Of a stretch of 64,000 nucleotides of DNA, positions 50,812 through 57,305 are shown piece after piece (the first letter of the stretch is position 1; every line of letters starts with the position of its first letter). This DNA comes from Cryptobacterium curtum DSM 15641 (lineage in GTDB: Bacteria > Actinomycetota > Coriobacteriia > Coriobacteriales > Eggerthellaceae): NCBI RefSeq assembly GCF_000023845.1, contig NC_013170.1, positions 930,001 to 994,000 on the forward strand, in the 5' to 3' direction. Under the pieces are notes generated by a model. That model saw only the letters and a program-made list of their open reading frames with translations, was not told where the DNA came from and made no database searches. A program made the translations under genes and the position numbers.

Positions 50812-51176
50812 GTGCGCACCTCCTTGGTGTCTTCTCCTGCCTGCATGGAAAACGGTAGCGCCTTGTGCATATGTTTCGCGCTGTCTCCCGGTCGATAGAT
50901 ACCCACACGCAACAAACGGTACCAAAATGTTACTTATACGTTAAAAAGTAACACTCATAGAACTGCATGCTCATGTGTTTACGACCCTGAAGCACAGCGC
51001 TCTCGTCTGCCTTGAGCGCTCGTATGGTTAGTATAAGCCTTGTTGTTACTTCCGTATCACAGGGATCGGGGAAAACCCGCAGATTCGATTATTTGAGCGC
51101 ATTTATTGTCAGTTAAGACTATGGAGACCCTAAAAAGTCAAACAAATCGACCCCTAAAATCCACCCCTAGGCATAA
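50812..51176. other. Non-coding leader and promoter region upstream of hyaA
   Basis: About 365 bases with no supported gene. It holds the palindrome at 50928-50953 (separate entry), a short hairpin CGGG-N5-CCCG at 51067-51079, and a CCCCTAAAATCCACCCCTAGG-like stretch near 51150. Nothing else is recognised. Confidence 0.5.
50928..50953. promoter_or_regulatory. 26-base palindrome upstream of hyaABC
   Basis: TGTTACTT (50928-50935) and AAGTAACA (50946-50953) are perfect 8-base arms separated by ten bases, 117 bases before the hyaA ATG. It resembles an operator for a dimeric regulator. It does not match the FNR consensus TTGAT-N4-ATCAA. Confidence 0.5.
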
Positions 51177-53155: not shown

Positions 53156-54103
53156 TTACACCTGTAAGGCATCGTCCACGCGCTGAAAAAATCCTTCAGC
53201 AGCTAGCTCGTCAACAAGGCGGTTCAGCGTCGTTTGATCGACAGACGGTCGACCCATCCGATTTTCTTCCGTATTCAGTAACGCACCAACTTCTGTGAAC
53301 GATATTCCTGAATGAGCAAGCACCGTACGTAAGATAAAGGCGCGCTTTTGACGATGCGACCCCTCAAAAGTGTTCTGCCGTGCATAATGAGCTGAGCGCC
53401 GGGTAGGATTTTTCTCCGTCTGCTTGATATGCGCACCCCAATCGAGCAGGGCATAATACCATCCCCGTGGGTTGTCATGGCTGCATGTTTGCTCGACAAG
53501 CGGAATAAGCTCGCGATCGTGTACCGCTTCAGTGTGATGAGCAAAAAACTCGTGAATAAAAACCGCGCGCACATTCGTTTCCACATACACCGCTGGCTTC
53601 TGAAACGCAAATGCCAGAATGCCACCAGCCGTTGCGGGTCCAATACCCGGAAGTGATAGCAGATCATCAAGCGTATCGGGCATCGTCGAGTCAAACCGCT
53701 CGACACACGCACAAGCTGCTCGCATAAGCGCGAGAGCGCGACGGTTATAGCCAAGGCCTTGCCACAGTTCGAGCACCTGTGCGGTTTCGGCATGTGCCAG
53801 ATCGTCAATTGTCGGAAAGGCTTCCATAAAACGCGGCCAGAACTTTTCAACACGAGAAACCTGCGTCTGCTGCAACATAACCTCGGATACATAGACCGCA
53901 TATGCGTCGTCGATGCCACGCCAGGGCAAATTATCACGCGCATATGCAAGGCCAGCTTCCCATACAGCGCGACGAAATGCTTCAAGCCGTTCTTCTGTCG
54001 GTACGCCATGATTAAACTCGGTACAAGCACCATCACCAACAATAGTGCTTCCCTGAACGTATGCGTTAGATGATGCTGCAGACGAAACGCGCTTTTGAGT
54101 CAT
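53156..54103 (-). CDS. MutY-like adenine glycosylase lacking the Fe-S cluster
   Basis: 315 residues. The HhH-GPD core is clear: LPWRGIDDAYAVYVSEVMLQ with the MutY general-acid Glu, and LLSLPGIGPATAGGILAFAF (HhH). The catalytic Asp position reads YVETNVRAVF, Glu instead of Asp. The region where MutY binds 4Fe-4S (LDWGAHIKQTEKNPTRRSAH) has no cysteines. The C terminus is a small winged-helix-like segment (TLNRLVDELAAEGFFQRV) instead of the NUDIX-like 8-oxoG reader. Adenine removal opposite 8-oxoguanine is therefore uncertain. Convergent with pheA. Confidence 0.8.
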   Translation of the reverse strand: MTQKRVSSAASSNAYVQGSTIVGDGACTEFNHGVPTEERLEAFRRAVWEAGLAYARDNLPWRGIDDAYAVYVSEVMLQQTQVSRVEKFWPRFMEAFPTIDDLAHAETAQVLELWQGLGYNRRALALMRAACACVERFDSTMPDTLDDLLSLPGIGPATAGGILAFAFQKPAVYVETNVRAVFIHEFFAHHTEAVHDRELIPLVEQTCSHDNPRGWYYALLDWGAHIKQTEKNPTRRSAHYARQNTFEGSHRQKRAFILRTVLAHSGISFTEVGALLNTEENRMGRPSVDQTTLNRLVDELAAEGFFQRVDDALQV

Positions 54104-54124: not shown

Positions 54125-54637
54125 TTAGTTGCAAGTAACCGCGCACGACGTGGGAGCGCGTCCATCGAGAAGCTCATCAAGACTCGTACGTACCGCCTCA
54201 TCCGCCGCCTCAATGGTTGAAGCAGGGATATTTGAACTTGTTGACTCAAACATATCGGAAAGCGTTACCGAATCGAACAGCGTGTTGAGCATTTTATCGG
54301 CAACTTGCCAGAGCTGGTTGAAACGGCAACCCTCGCTTTTTGAACATGACTGCGGATCAGCCGCACAAGCCGACACCGTTACCTCACCCTGCAATGCATG
54401 CAATACATCAAGCACCGTTACCTGCGAAAGATCAATCGCAAGCTGCAATCCACCATGTGCGCCCCGTACCGTACGTACATACCCCGCTTGCACAAGATCA
54501 TGCTGAATGGTGCGGGCAAAGGCATAGGGAATCTCTTCTTCCTCAGAGATTTCAGCAACCGACACAAAACGGTCTCGGTGGCGGTAAGCACTGCGCAGAA
54601 TACGGCAGGCATAGTCGCAACGGCGGGTCAGTTCCAC
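54125..54637 (-). CDS. Rrf2-family (IscR-like) transcriptional regulator
   Basis: 170 residues from GTG 54637, one base after the stop of the upstream gene (TAAGGTG) with GAAGGAGG eight bases before; the longer frame to 54781 overlaps that gene and is unlikely. Winged HTH: ELTRRCDYACRILRSAYRHR, SVAEISEEEEIPYAFARTIQ, GYVRTVRGAHGGLQLA. Three cysteines (CAADPQSCSKSEGC) form an IscR-like cluster site, so it may sense Fe-S status, oxygen or nitric oxide. Translation is coupled to the pseudo-AAA protein, which suggests a joint function. Target genes are unknown. Confidence 0.87.
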   Translation of the reverse strand: MELTRRCDYACRILRSAYRHRDRFVSVAEISEEEEIPYAFARTIQHDLVQAGYVRTVRGAHGGLQLAIDLSQVTVLDVLHALQGEVTVSACAADPQSCSKSEGCRFNQLWQVADKMLNTLFDSVTLSDMFESTSSNIPASTIEAADEAVRTSLDELLDGRAPTSCAVTCN

Positions 54638-54638
54638 C

Positions 54639-56309
54639 TTATCGGCCTCCTTCTTCATCGAGAAGGTCGTCAAGGCGTTCGAACTCCCCTTGCATACTAT
54701 CGATAACCGCATTTTCAAGCCGGCGATATTCATCGGATTCAACCGGGTGGTACGAGGCGAGTTTCTCAAACACATTCGCACGCGTCACCGGCACAAACCG
54801 ACGCTCGCGCACACCCGCACGAAATGCTTCCTCCACCGACTGACGCGCTGCCTCATAGATTTCAATGCGTGTCAGGTGCGATGAATATGTCACCAAATCT
54901 TCCCGATCGATAGGACGAAGCGATGGGTGCAACGTGCAGATGTGTTGCCAAATAGCAGCGCGTTCGGTGCGAGTTGGCAGCCCGATAGATACTTCGTCGA
55001 TCGGATCGAGGAGGCTTGCGAAAAAGCCATCAAGTGGCGTTATATCCGATGCCGTAGCAATCACCGCAACAGCGGGATTTTCTACCGCCTGACGTATGAA
55101 ATTGATAACTTCGCGCGCCCCGCGCGTGAGCTGCATTGAAGTGATGGATGGATCAATATCGGAAGGAAGATCGGGAACACCCCAGTCGTCAACATCCTCA
55201 AGCATGAGTACGCCCGGACCCTCGAACGAGGCATGGCCGAAATGTGGACGCAGGCGAAATTCAGGTGAAGCCATAACGGAAAGAACCGGCATACCTTGTG
55301 GCGTCATATCCATCGACATGCGTACGAGCGGGCCAGCCAACTCACCCGCCAGTGCAAGCATAAATTGGTTAGCATCTTCGCGGGCAGCAGCGCGCACGAG
55401 GATGGTATCAATCTGCGGAATACCTGACACACCGTGACGACTGTCAAGCAAATCAACCAGTTGACCAAATGCTTCATCGTCAGAAAGACCAATCCCGCGG
55501 CGACGCATCTGTGCAATTGCCTTGTCATACCCGATGAGGTCTGCAAAAGTAATGCGCTCTTCGCTATCACCTGCCCCATCGGTATCTGATTCTTTTTGAG
55601 GCTCGTCTGACTGTACCGCAGATGTCTTCTTCGCAGATGGCAAAGGAATCTTCTTACGCACAGCATTAGATGTATCAGATGCCTGTTTCTGCCTGTGAGA
55701 AGTATCCTTCACGGTATGAGCTTCGTCCATGGCAGATGCGCCACTTGCACTACTTGCGCTACTGGCTGACTCATCGTCTGTCTCAGCTGCTGCGTGCTCT
55801 AACGTGGCGTGGGATTCTTTCGCTGCACTCGAAGAAGGCGTGAGCCCTCCAACCGCCAGCGTCATATCCCCTATTTGCATGATTGAATCGGCATCAATCA
55901 GATCGTCGGCAAGTAAATCTGCCATGCCTTGGGCTGCTTCAGGTGTAAAGCCAAATTCTTCAAGACGGTCGAGTGCCATCCGCTGAAGCTGACGCGCGCG
56001 ATTACGCTGTTCATCGGCAGTAGAGTACGGCTGAAGCTTTTCAAAAATATGTTCAGCAAGAGAGCGCTCATTTGATTCGCAGGCCGTAATCCACGCTTGG
56101 CGTAAACCTTCAACCACGCGGCGAGAAGGAGATTCAGAATCTTCCTGTGCTTTTTCAAAAGCAGCAAGATACAAATGAGCAGCTAAAGACCCATCACCCG
56201 CTTCGCGGGCACGTTCAGCCTGGGTAAGATATGCCTCCGAGCTTGAGGGCGCAGAACTACGGGCACGGCGGCCGGCAGATCCACCAAAGTTCAAGTTGAA
56301 ACCGAACAT
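54639..56309 (-). CDS. Degenerate AAA-like protein without Walker A
   Basis: 556 residues from ATG 56309 (AAGGAGG upstream); GTG 56318 is too close to it. Residues 1-130 are helical and TPR-like (YLTQAERAREAGDGSLAAHL). About 150-255 is low-complexity Ser/Asp/Glu. Residues 260-530 follow a classical AAA fold, but the P-loop reads ILVRAAAREDANQFMLALAG where GPPGTGKT is expected, Walker B reads GVLMLEDVDDWG, and the arginine finger region (LDGFFASLLDPIDEVSIGLP) lacks Arg. It is thus probably a non-hydrolysing scaffold. Co-transcribed with the Rrf2 regulator. No family name is known to me. Confidence 0.7.
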   Translation of the reverse strand: MFGFNLNFGGSAGRRARSSAPSSSEAYLTQAERAREAGDGSLAAHLYLAAFEKAQEDSESPSRRVVEGLRQAWITACESNERSLAEHIFEKLQPYSTADEQRNRARQLQRMALDRLEEFGFTPEAAQGMADLLADDLIDADSIMQIGDMTLAVGGLTPSSSAAKESHATLEHAAAETDDESASSASSASGASAMDEAHTVKDTSHRQKQASDTSNAVRKKIPLPSAKKTSAVQSDEPQKESDTDGAGDSEERITFADLIGYDKAIAQMRRRGIGLSDDEAFGQLVDLLDSRHGVSGIPQIDTILVRAAAREDANQFMLALAGELAGPLVRMSMDMTPQGMPVLSVMASPEFRLRPHFGHASFEGPGVLMLEDVDDWGVPDLPSDIDPSITSMQLTRGAREVINFIRQAVENPAVAVIATASDITPLDGFFASLLDPIDEVSIGLPTRTERAAIWQHICTLHPSLRPIDREDLVTYSSHLTRIEIYEAARQSVEEAFRAGVRERRFVPVTRANVFEKLASYHPVESDEYRRLENAVIDSMQGEFERLDDLLDEEGGR

Positions 56310-56473
56310 AGCGTCCACCCTCCTTTACGTCGTAGGCCTCAATAGTAGTGGTGTTGTTCGTGTTCACCGATAGTGTTCGAATTTATGGTAGCTGCTCTTG
56401 CCCAAGAACAAGCGACAAAATGAAAGAGCCGATACAATCGTCACCTTCCTGACAACAGTTTGGGCTTCTTGTA

Positions 56474-57184
56474 TCAGGAATTCCAGTCAAGAATGGGCCA
56501 GCCCTGCCGCTTTGCCTCACGCTCGAGCGGATTATCGGGCGTTACCGCATAGGGATGATCGGCCATGCGCAAGAGCGGTAAATCGGAATGATGGTCGCCA
56601 TAAGCATGCGTAACAACCCAACCTCCGGGGCCAAATGTTTTATCAGCAAGCCGGGTAAGCGCAGCGACTTTTTCAGCGCCCTCCACTGGTAAACCTTCGA
56701 CTTGGCGAGTGTAGCGTCCTGCTGCATCGACATGCATGCGCGTCGATGTCTGTAAATCAAACGAATGATTTTGCTGAGCTCGCTTAACAATAGGCTCCCA
56801 ACTTGCTGAAACGACAACCACCGTACGACCTGCTTGTGTATGAGCACGCATACTCTGTTCGGCTTGCTCACGGAAACAGGATGCCACTTCTTCGTCGTAA
56901 AAGTGAGAAAGGTAGGCATCGACTTCGGCCTTCGGTTCACCGGCAAACGCCTTAAAAACCTGAGAGCGCACCCAGCTTTCGTTTTGCGGTAAACGCAGTT
57001 TATAGCGCAATGCCCACAGACCAATACGCAAACCTGCGGTTAAGCGAAGGCGACGATTACGCAGAAGATACCGCACCAGCATAACGGGAGAATTACCCGT
57101 GATACTCGTACCATCAAAATCGTAGACTGCCAACTGAACCGGACTGTCCGGTTGAGACGGCGCATCATGCGCAGAATGACTCAT
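56474..57184 (-). CDS. HAD-IB phosphatase (SerB-like)
   Basis: 236 residues. Motif I is VYDFDGTSITGNS (nucleophile Asp), motif II VVVSASWEP, motif IV AYGDHHSDLPLL. The helical cap matches HAD-IB (phosphoserine phosphatase and PGP-like enzymes). The substrate cannot be assigned. It starts four bases after the stop of the ABC-exporter remnant, whose coding sequence also supplies a Shine-Dalgarno-like GGAAG. In the ancestral arrangement the ABC exporter was probably its upstream partner. Confidence 0.85.
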   Translation of the reverse strand: MSHSAHDAPSQPDSPVQLAVYDFDGTSITGNSPVMLVRYLLRNRRLRLTAGLRIGLWALRYKLRLPQNESWVRSQVFKAFAGEPKAEVDAYLSHFYDEEVASCFREQAEQSMRAHTQAGRTVVVVSASWEPIVKRAQQNHSFDLQTSTRMHVDAAGRYTRQVEGLPVEGAEKVAALTRLADKTFGPGGWVVTHAYGDHHSDLPLLRMADHPYAVTPDNPLEREAKRQGWPILDWNS

Positions 57185-57188
57185 GTCC

Positions 57189-57305
57189 TTATGCTTCCAG
57201 CCCGTCTTCTTCCTGTGCTTCGAATCGAGAATTGTACAGCTTTACATAAAAGCCGCCAAGCGCAAGCAACTGCTCATGCGTGCCTTGCTCTACTACATCC
57301 CATTC
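57189..57305 (-). pseudogene. C-terminal remnant of an ABC exporter gene
   Basis: Directly after the MFS stop, in the same frame, the minus strand reads WDVVEQGTHEQLLALGGFYV, then KLYNSRFEAQEEDGLEA and a stop. VEQGTHEQLLALGGFY...LYNSRFE is the characteristic C terminus of MsbA/LmrA-type ABC exporters. Only about 38 codons remain; the membrane domain, Walker motifs and signature are gone. A deletion joining the MFS gene to the exporter tail, or replacement of the exporter by the MFS gene, would explain it. Confidence 0.82.

Follow-up and report, generated by a model that had tools for sequence, protein, structure and literature searches.

A protein of 556 residues encoded in the genome of Cryptobacterium curtum DSM 15641 was found to be a genuine pseudo-ATPase belonging to the classical AAA type, as shown computationally by its fold, the loss of all its catalytic motifs, its conservation and the purifying selection acting on it. 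The gene directly downstream encodes an Rrf2-family regulator, and sequence comparison suggests that this regulator is most likely a local switch with the pseudo-AAA gene as its target. An initial annotation of the locus had raised the reverse arrangement, in which the pseudo-AAA protein controls or senses through the regulator; the direction is corrected here, as the pseudo-ATPase looks like the target of the regulator and not its master.

Gene location and predicted structure

The window is the whole stretch of 64,000 nucleotides analysed, taken from a single-contig genome of 1,617,804 bases. The pseudo-AAA open reading frame spans 54639..56318 on the minus strand and the best start is the ATG at 56309, which is preceded by a strong Shine-Dalgarno sequence. 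The stop codon TAA (54641-54639) is followed by a single spacer base (54638) and then by the GTG of the Rrf2 gene (54637), the tight coupling that the initial annotation had pointed out. The features of the locus are:

53156..54103, minus strand: MutY adenine glycosylase, conserved downstream neighbour (orthology in syntenic loci)
54125..54637, minus strand: Rrf2-family regulator, 170 residues plus stop, GTG start one base past the pseudo-AAA stop
54326..54367, minus strand: Cys91-X6-Cys98-X5-Cys104 of the Rrf2 protein
54639..56309, minus strand: pseudo-AAA gene, 556 residues plus stop, ATG start at 56309, Shine-Dalgarno AAAGGAGGG
54642-56309, minus strand: coding part of the pseudo-AAA gene without the stop codon
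54642..54971, minus strand: helical lid and C-terminal helix, residues 447-556, sensor-2 position without the classical GADL turn
54972..55568, minus strand: AAA alpha/beta core, residues 248-446 (AlphaFold, structure matches, profile-profile alignment)
55188..55211, minus strand: pseudo-Walker B VLMLEDVD, residues 367-374, ED replacing DE (alignment)
55368..55391, minus strand: pseudo-Walker A AAAREDAN, residues 307-314, replacing GPPGTGKT (alignments, AlphaFold model)
55569..55871, minus strand: variable linker, residues 147-247, probably disordered (pLDDT <50; omega 0.14-0.66)
55872..56249, minus strand: N-terminal helical TPR-like domain, residues 21-146, three helical hairpins (AlphaFold models, Foldseek/VIA)
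56434..56462, plus strand: strongest operator-like candidate upstream of the pseudo-AAA gene, weak and not accepted (11-12 bits; shuffled 99% level 11.4)
56474..57184, minus strand: SerB-like HAD hydrolase, conserved upstream neighbour

Template-free AlphaFold modelling with 65 relatives gave a helical region (residues 24-146), a disordered linker and a high-confidence domain at residues 248-556, with pLDDT mostly above 90. This domain was matched to FtsH (1lv7) by VIA with a Z of 14.1 and an rmsd of 3.4 over 228 aligned residues, and it also resembled the AAA domains of p97, ATAD1/Msp1, spastin and Vps4 (Z 13-14 for the best matches); the best Foldseek E value was 4e-7. The model, the structure matches and the profile alignment all gave an AAA core and lid, so that structure prediction, proposed earlier as a check on the AAA assignment, upheld it. 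The classical AAA ATPases are the best structural matches and share with the pseudo-AAA protein the P..ER..IW that follows the core, but the identity is only about 10-20%, and the pseudo-AAA protein has no Pfam match and is without Walker A, the DE of Walker B, the sensor-1 asparagine and the arginine finger. When the N-terminal domain was modelled alone, nearly all of its Foldseek/VIA matches were TPR proteins, the highest being Tom70 with a Z of 12.4, a value too low to be relied on for helical repeats, which easily reach middling Z; no Foldseek match fell under an E of 0.001. The three helical hairpins recall the TPR domains of Tom70, Hop TPR2A and the P4H peptide-binding domain, a likeness that is suggestive only.

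Single-sequence searches with the protein (P0001) of Pfam, PADLOC and, by sequence, the PDB were empty, NCBIfam returned nothing of note, and the protein was absent from the matches to PF00004 above cut-off in its own genome. A profile of the family reached p97-like proteins weakly. Neither Pfam nor NCBIfam holds a model for the family, which is undescribed in the libraries searched.

Loss of the catalytic motifs

The initial annotation had placed RAAAREDANQ by eye at the position of GPPGTGKT. In a profile-profile alignment with the intact AAA protein of loci L142 and L161 (ILLYGPPGCGKTLLAQAAAGEM), the segment ILVRAAAREDANQFMLALAGEL of the pseudo-AAA protein was aligned ungapped (Prob 97, E 7e-11) and AAAREDAN was paired with GPPGCGKT, showing that this register was correct. 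The Walker A consensus GxxGxGK[ST] is replaced by AAAREDAN, none of the 96 members compared has a lysine at the Walker A column, and orthologues with an intact Walker A, which had been named as the sign of a recent decay, were not seen in the order. In the AlphaFold model strand 302-307 passes almost directly into helix 310-324 at the pseudo-P-loop. The Walker B pattern hhhhDE is likewise missing; the column reads ED, EN, EG and the like in the 96 members, a glutamate followed by D or N in nearly all. The sensor-1 asparagine and an RPGRF-type arginine finger are absent throughout the members compared, their places being occupied in the C. curtum protein by IATASD and SLLDPID, which bears out the earlier remark that the finger is missing. 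The RED motif that stands in the pseudo-P-loop is invariant in all 46 Eggerthellaceae carrying the Rrf2 gene and is conserved widely, and in the sister family f5 the majority of proteins retain G-P in the form GPSRED (also GPSREDV). In genus g9 (L122, L125) the pseudo-AAA protein is short, at 377-379 residues without the N-domain, its pseudo-P-loop motif differs (GDTPEE/GETPEE), and neither Rrf2 nor HAD adjoins it.

The nearest active relative found is a rare AAA protein of 434 residues from another Coriobacteriia family (G385; L142 5268-6573, plus strand; also L161 and L162). It gave the best profile match among all proteins compared and, like the pseudo-AAA protein, has a helical N-domain followed by an AAA domain. 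It differs in that GPPGCGKT, DEID and GRF are intact and that Rrf2, HAD and MutY do not adjoin its gene; the N-domains taken alone have weak similarity, and orthology between the two is a candidate only.

Distribution, selection and gene order

The family is present in 115 of 119 Eggerthellaceae genomes (85 of the 85 good ones) and in 125 of the 299 genomes of the order, where it occurs in the Eggerthellaceae and three more families (f1, f3, f5 and f9). None was seen in families f4 and f10 of the order, and elsewhere in the class only a distant, intact AAA protein was found. Values of omega were 0.0-0.2 in most pairs of close relatives for both the N-domain and the AAA domain, compared with 0.14-0.66 for the linker, and purifying selection was equal in genomes with and without the Rrf2 gene. 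The conserved motifs together with the low omega point to an old, selected pseudo-ATPase, and on sequence comparison the protein is one that lost its ATP-handling parts early in the order and has been kept by selection.

The wide gene order is MarR - ABC - ABC - HAD - pseudo-AAA - Rrf2 - MutY - MntP - ... hydrogenase. The segment HAD - pseudo-AAA - Rrf2 - MutY was found also in the distant family f5; since the two families have this order in common, it probably dates back to their shared ancestor. A profile search identified the Rrf2 orthologue in 64 of the 118 genomes of the family, and in all 64 its gene immediately follows the pseudo-AAA gene and has the same orientation. It was absent from the other 54, nearly all of which have kept the pseudo-AAA gene. 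Where Rrf2 has been lost, MutY is mostly the direct neighbour, the pseudo-AAA gene abutting mutY in 30 of 39 such loci, and the presence or absence of Rrf2 corresponds to about six state changes on the tree. Some genomes have the pseudo-AAA gene with no MutY or HAD adjoining, and no conserved AAA partner gene was found near it at the loci compared. In four f5 loci (L128, L133, L136, L137) the HAD open reading frame beside the pseudo-AAA gene has about 490-720 codons, far longer than in Eggerthellaceae, which may reflect a fusion or a wrongly assigned start.

The Rrf2 regulator

The protein of 170 residues is an Rrf2 winged-helix protein (PF02082, 107.4 bits against a cut-off of 30, E 8e-31; TIGR00738, 93.4 against 73.3), although it passed the cut-off of none of the named Rrf2 equivalogs of NCBIfam, with 47.5 bits for NsrR (cut-off 182) and 69.2 bits for IscR (cut-off 207.55). 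All 23 orthologues compared, which come from two families, have Cys91, Cys98, Cys104, Asp8 and Arg12. The [4Fe-4S] cluster of NsrR from Streptomyces coelicolor is held by three cysteines and Asp8, which pairs with Arg12, while IscR uses His107 (PMC5411485). The three cysteines, Asp8 and Arg12 stand at matching places in the present protein, giving it the NsrR ligand set, whereas position 107 is an asparagine here and a histidine in only six of the 23 orthologues. The earlier description as an IscR-like regulator is loose: an Fe-S type is supported, but the ligand residues make an NsrR-like sensor with a [4Fe-4S] cluster on Cys91, Cys98, Cys104 and Asp8 the likelier type. NsrR of S. coelicolor also has a small regulon to which its own gene belongs (PMC5411485, PMC9338935), as is predicted for this Rrf2. 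The differences from NsrR are the X6/X5 spacing of the cysteines, the score far below the NsrR model cut-off, another operator sequence and the lack of an adjoining NO-detoxifying gene.

An operator-like palindrome

Most species that carry the Rrf2 gene have a palindrome, TAAAATGnTACytGannaTAnnCATTT, upstream of the pseudo-AAA gene, and species without Rrf2 hardly ever do. The palindrome was obtained by a de novo palindrome search of 39 non-redundant pseudo-AAA upstream regions from Rrf2-carrying Eggerthellaceae, in which the result aAAATGntActnnnnnagTanCATTTt reached a log-likelihood of 250, compared to 45 for shuffled regions and 149 for regions from genomes lacking Rrf2. The operator-like site sequence, a candidate target DNA for Rrf2, is TAAAATGTGACTTGACCATATACATTT. 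Sites above 16 bits occur in about two thirds of the upstream regions with Rrf2 and in one of 38 without. When one half of the tree was used for training and the other was tested, the two groups differed with p values of 2e-6 and 6e-8, which ignore shared ancestry, related genomes overstating independence. Matches above 15 bits fell mostly at the pseudo-AAA promoter in 548 kb of loci with Rrf2, compared with none in 375 kb of loci without. The 118 genomes contain 19 sites with 0-1 mismatch, every one of them upstream of the pseudo-AAA gene, and sites elsewhere with 2-3 mismatches are few, near the control level. The length of 27-29 bp is consistent with the 23-39 bp of known Rrf2 operator fragments (PMC9338935); the TAAAAT part could be in part a -10 box. 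Control of the pseudo-AAA promoter by Rrf2 is strongly indicated by these sequence data in most Rrf2-carrying Eggerthellaceae.

A matrix trained on Eggerthellaceae, which had not seen f5, found a site above the shuffled 99% level in the gap between the pseudo-AAA and rrf2 genes in seven of 11 f5 genomes. As this site lies before rrf2, self-control of rrf2 looks ancestral, and control of the pseudo-AAA gene looks to have been acquired in the Eggerthellaceae. The C. curtum genome itself gave no genome-wide operator match even at three mismatches; the local sites in it and in its nearest relatives (L062, L072) are weak, at 11-12 bits, and none is a convincing operator. The circuit is consequently indicated for the relatives and not for the window, and the regulatory part may have changed in C. 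curtum and its nearest relatives.

The best match to the motif in the window is a TTAC...GTAACATTTT-like element at 50923-50951, just before the gene for the [NiFe]-hydrogenase small subunit. It was rejected as an Rrf2 target because similar GTAACATTTT elements precede the same gene in relatives with and without Rrf2, making another regulator likely. In L186 and L187 (G017, G086), from genomes without an Rrf2 orthologue, an operator-like TAAAATGTGAYCTAACTATCTACAATT was seen before the gene of a predicted membrane-segment protein.

Proposed role and alternative explanations

The reading that we consider fairly probable is that of a selected pseudo-ATPase, repressed by Rrf2 until cluster damage and serving as a nucleotide-independent scaffold or adaptor. 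The AAA body should neither bind nor hydrolyse ATP in the usual way. Rrf2, probably with an NsrR-like [4Fe-4S] cluster, would bind the palindrome before the pseudo-AAA gene and keep the pseudo-AAA - rrf2 (- mutY) transcript repressed until NO, oxygen or loss of iron damages the cluster, and the circuit would then turn itself off again. The induced protein would act as the scaffold, with the TPR groove holding a client and the AAA body docking, a role that we infer and that would be carried out without need for Rrf2. The most plausible setting would be a response for repair or protection in which MutY takes part as well. The stronger proposal, in which a nucleotide-free AAA scaffold induced by damage to a dedicated [4Fe-4S] Rrf2 repressor acts with the Fe-S enzyme MutY as a Coriobacteriales-specific, redox-induced module of oxidative DNA repair, appears improbable; gene order alone may be passive. 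A literature search on bacterial pseudo-AAA proteins or on Rrf2 in Eggerthella found nothing direct.

In the arrangement raised by the initial annotation the pseudo-AAA protein would be an adaptor that binds Rrf2 and controls it or relays signals to it. There is a precedent in CysK, which binds the Rrf2 protein CymR. The one-base spacing in C. curtum, the 0-18 bases in most Rrf2-carrying Eggerthellaceae and the observation that, in the 118 genomes, every copy of this Rrf2 gene adjoins the pseudo-AAA gene agree with such an adaptor, as does Arg310 (codon 55380-55382), which is invariant in the 46 Rrf2-carrying Eggerthellaceae and is Ile or Leu in ten of 32 members without Rrf2. Arg310 may, however, have been lost in one or two events, and it is missing from three f5/f3 members too; when an Rrf2 interface was mapped from columns conserved only in Rrf2-carrying members, Arg310 was the one suggestive position and the events were too few for the mapping to be accepted. 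The spacing in f5 is 60-460 bases, and the 54 genomes without Rrf2 nearly always keep the pseudo-AAA gene under equal constraint. This retention, together with a palindrome placed before the pseudo-AAA gene, makes it most likely that the direction of control is the reverse, and the adaptor is accordingly judged rather unlikely.

It is also doubtful that the AAA domain still binds nucleotide or joins an active AAA protein, for example FtsH, in a mixed ring as the inactive subunit. The closest folds, FtsH, p97, Msp1 and the Ycf2-FtsHi motor, would suit such a role, as would the conserved acidic ED pair of Walker B, but the sequence has no P-loop and the model hardly any, sensor 1 and the arginine finger have been lost as well, and the locus has no conserved AAA partner gene. 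Unlikely, too, is a house-keeping scaffold that Rrf2 and MutY adjoin through inherited gene order only; the near universality of the protein in Eggerthellaceae whatever its neighbours, including genomes in which MutY or HAD is not adjacent, fits this, but the presence of a specific palindrome before the gene tracks that of Rrf2. A decaying, functionless ATPase would account for the motif loss alone and is refuted, to the point of being almost inconceivable, by the missing lysine in all 96 members, the conserved RED, LED and other motifs, the omega mostly below 0.2 and the presence in 115 of 119 genomes.

Pseudo-AAA proteins were already known, but a bacterial family that is near-universal and has its P-loop replaced in a conserved way offers a clean example of the AAA body being retained for a non-ATP role. 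The protein occurs in gut and mouth bacteria. Rrf2 and its single predicted site would constitute a compact redox circuit that can be tested in Eggerthella and Gordonibacter, two genera common in the human gut with few well-understood regulators.

Upstream of the HAD gene the window contains a remnant of the 3'-end of an ABC exporter gene at 57187-57305 on the minus strand (EWDVVEQGTHEQLLALGGFYVKLYNSRFEAQEEDGLEA*), immediately following a gene for an MFS transporter, at the place where relatives have two ABC exporter genes.
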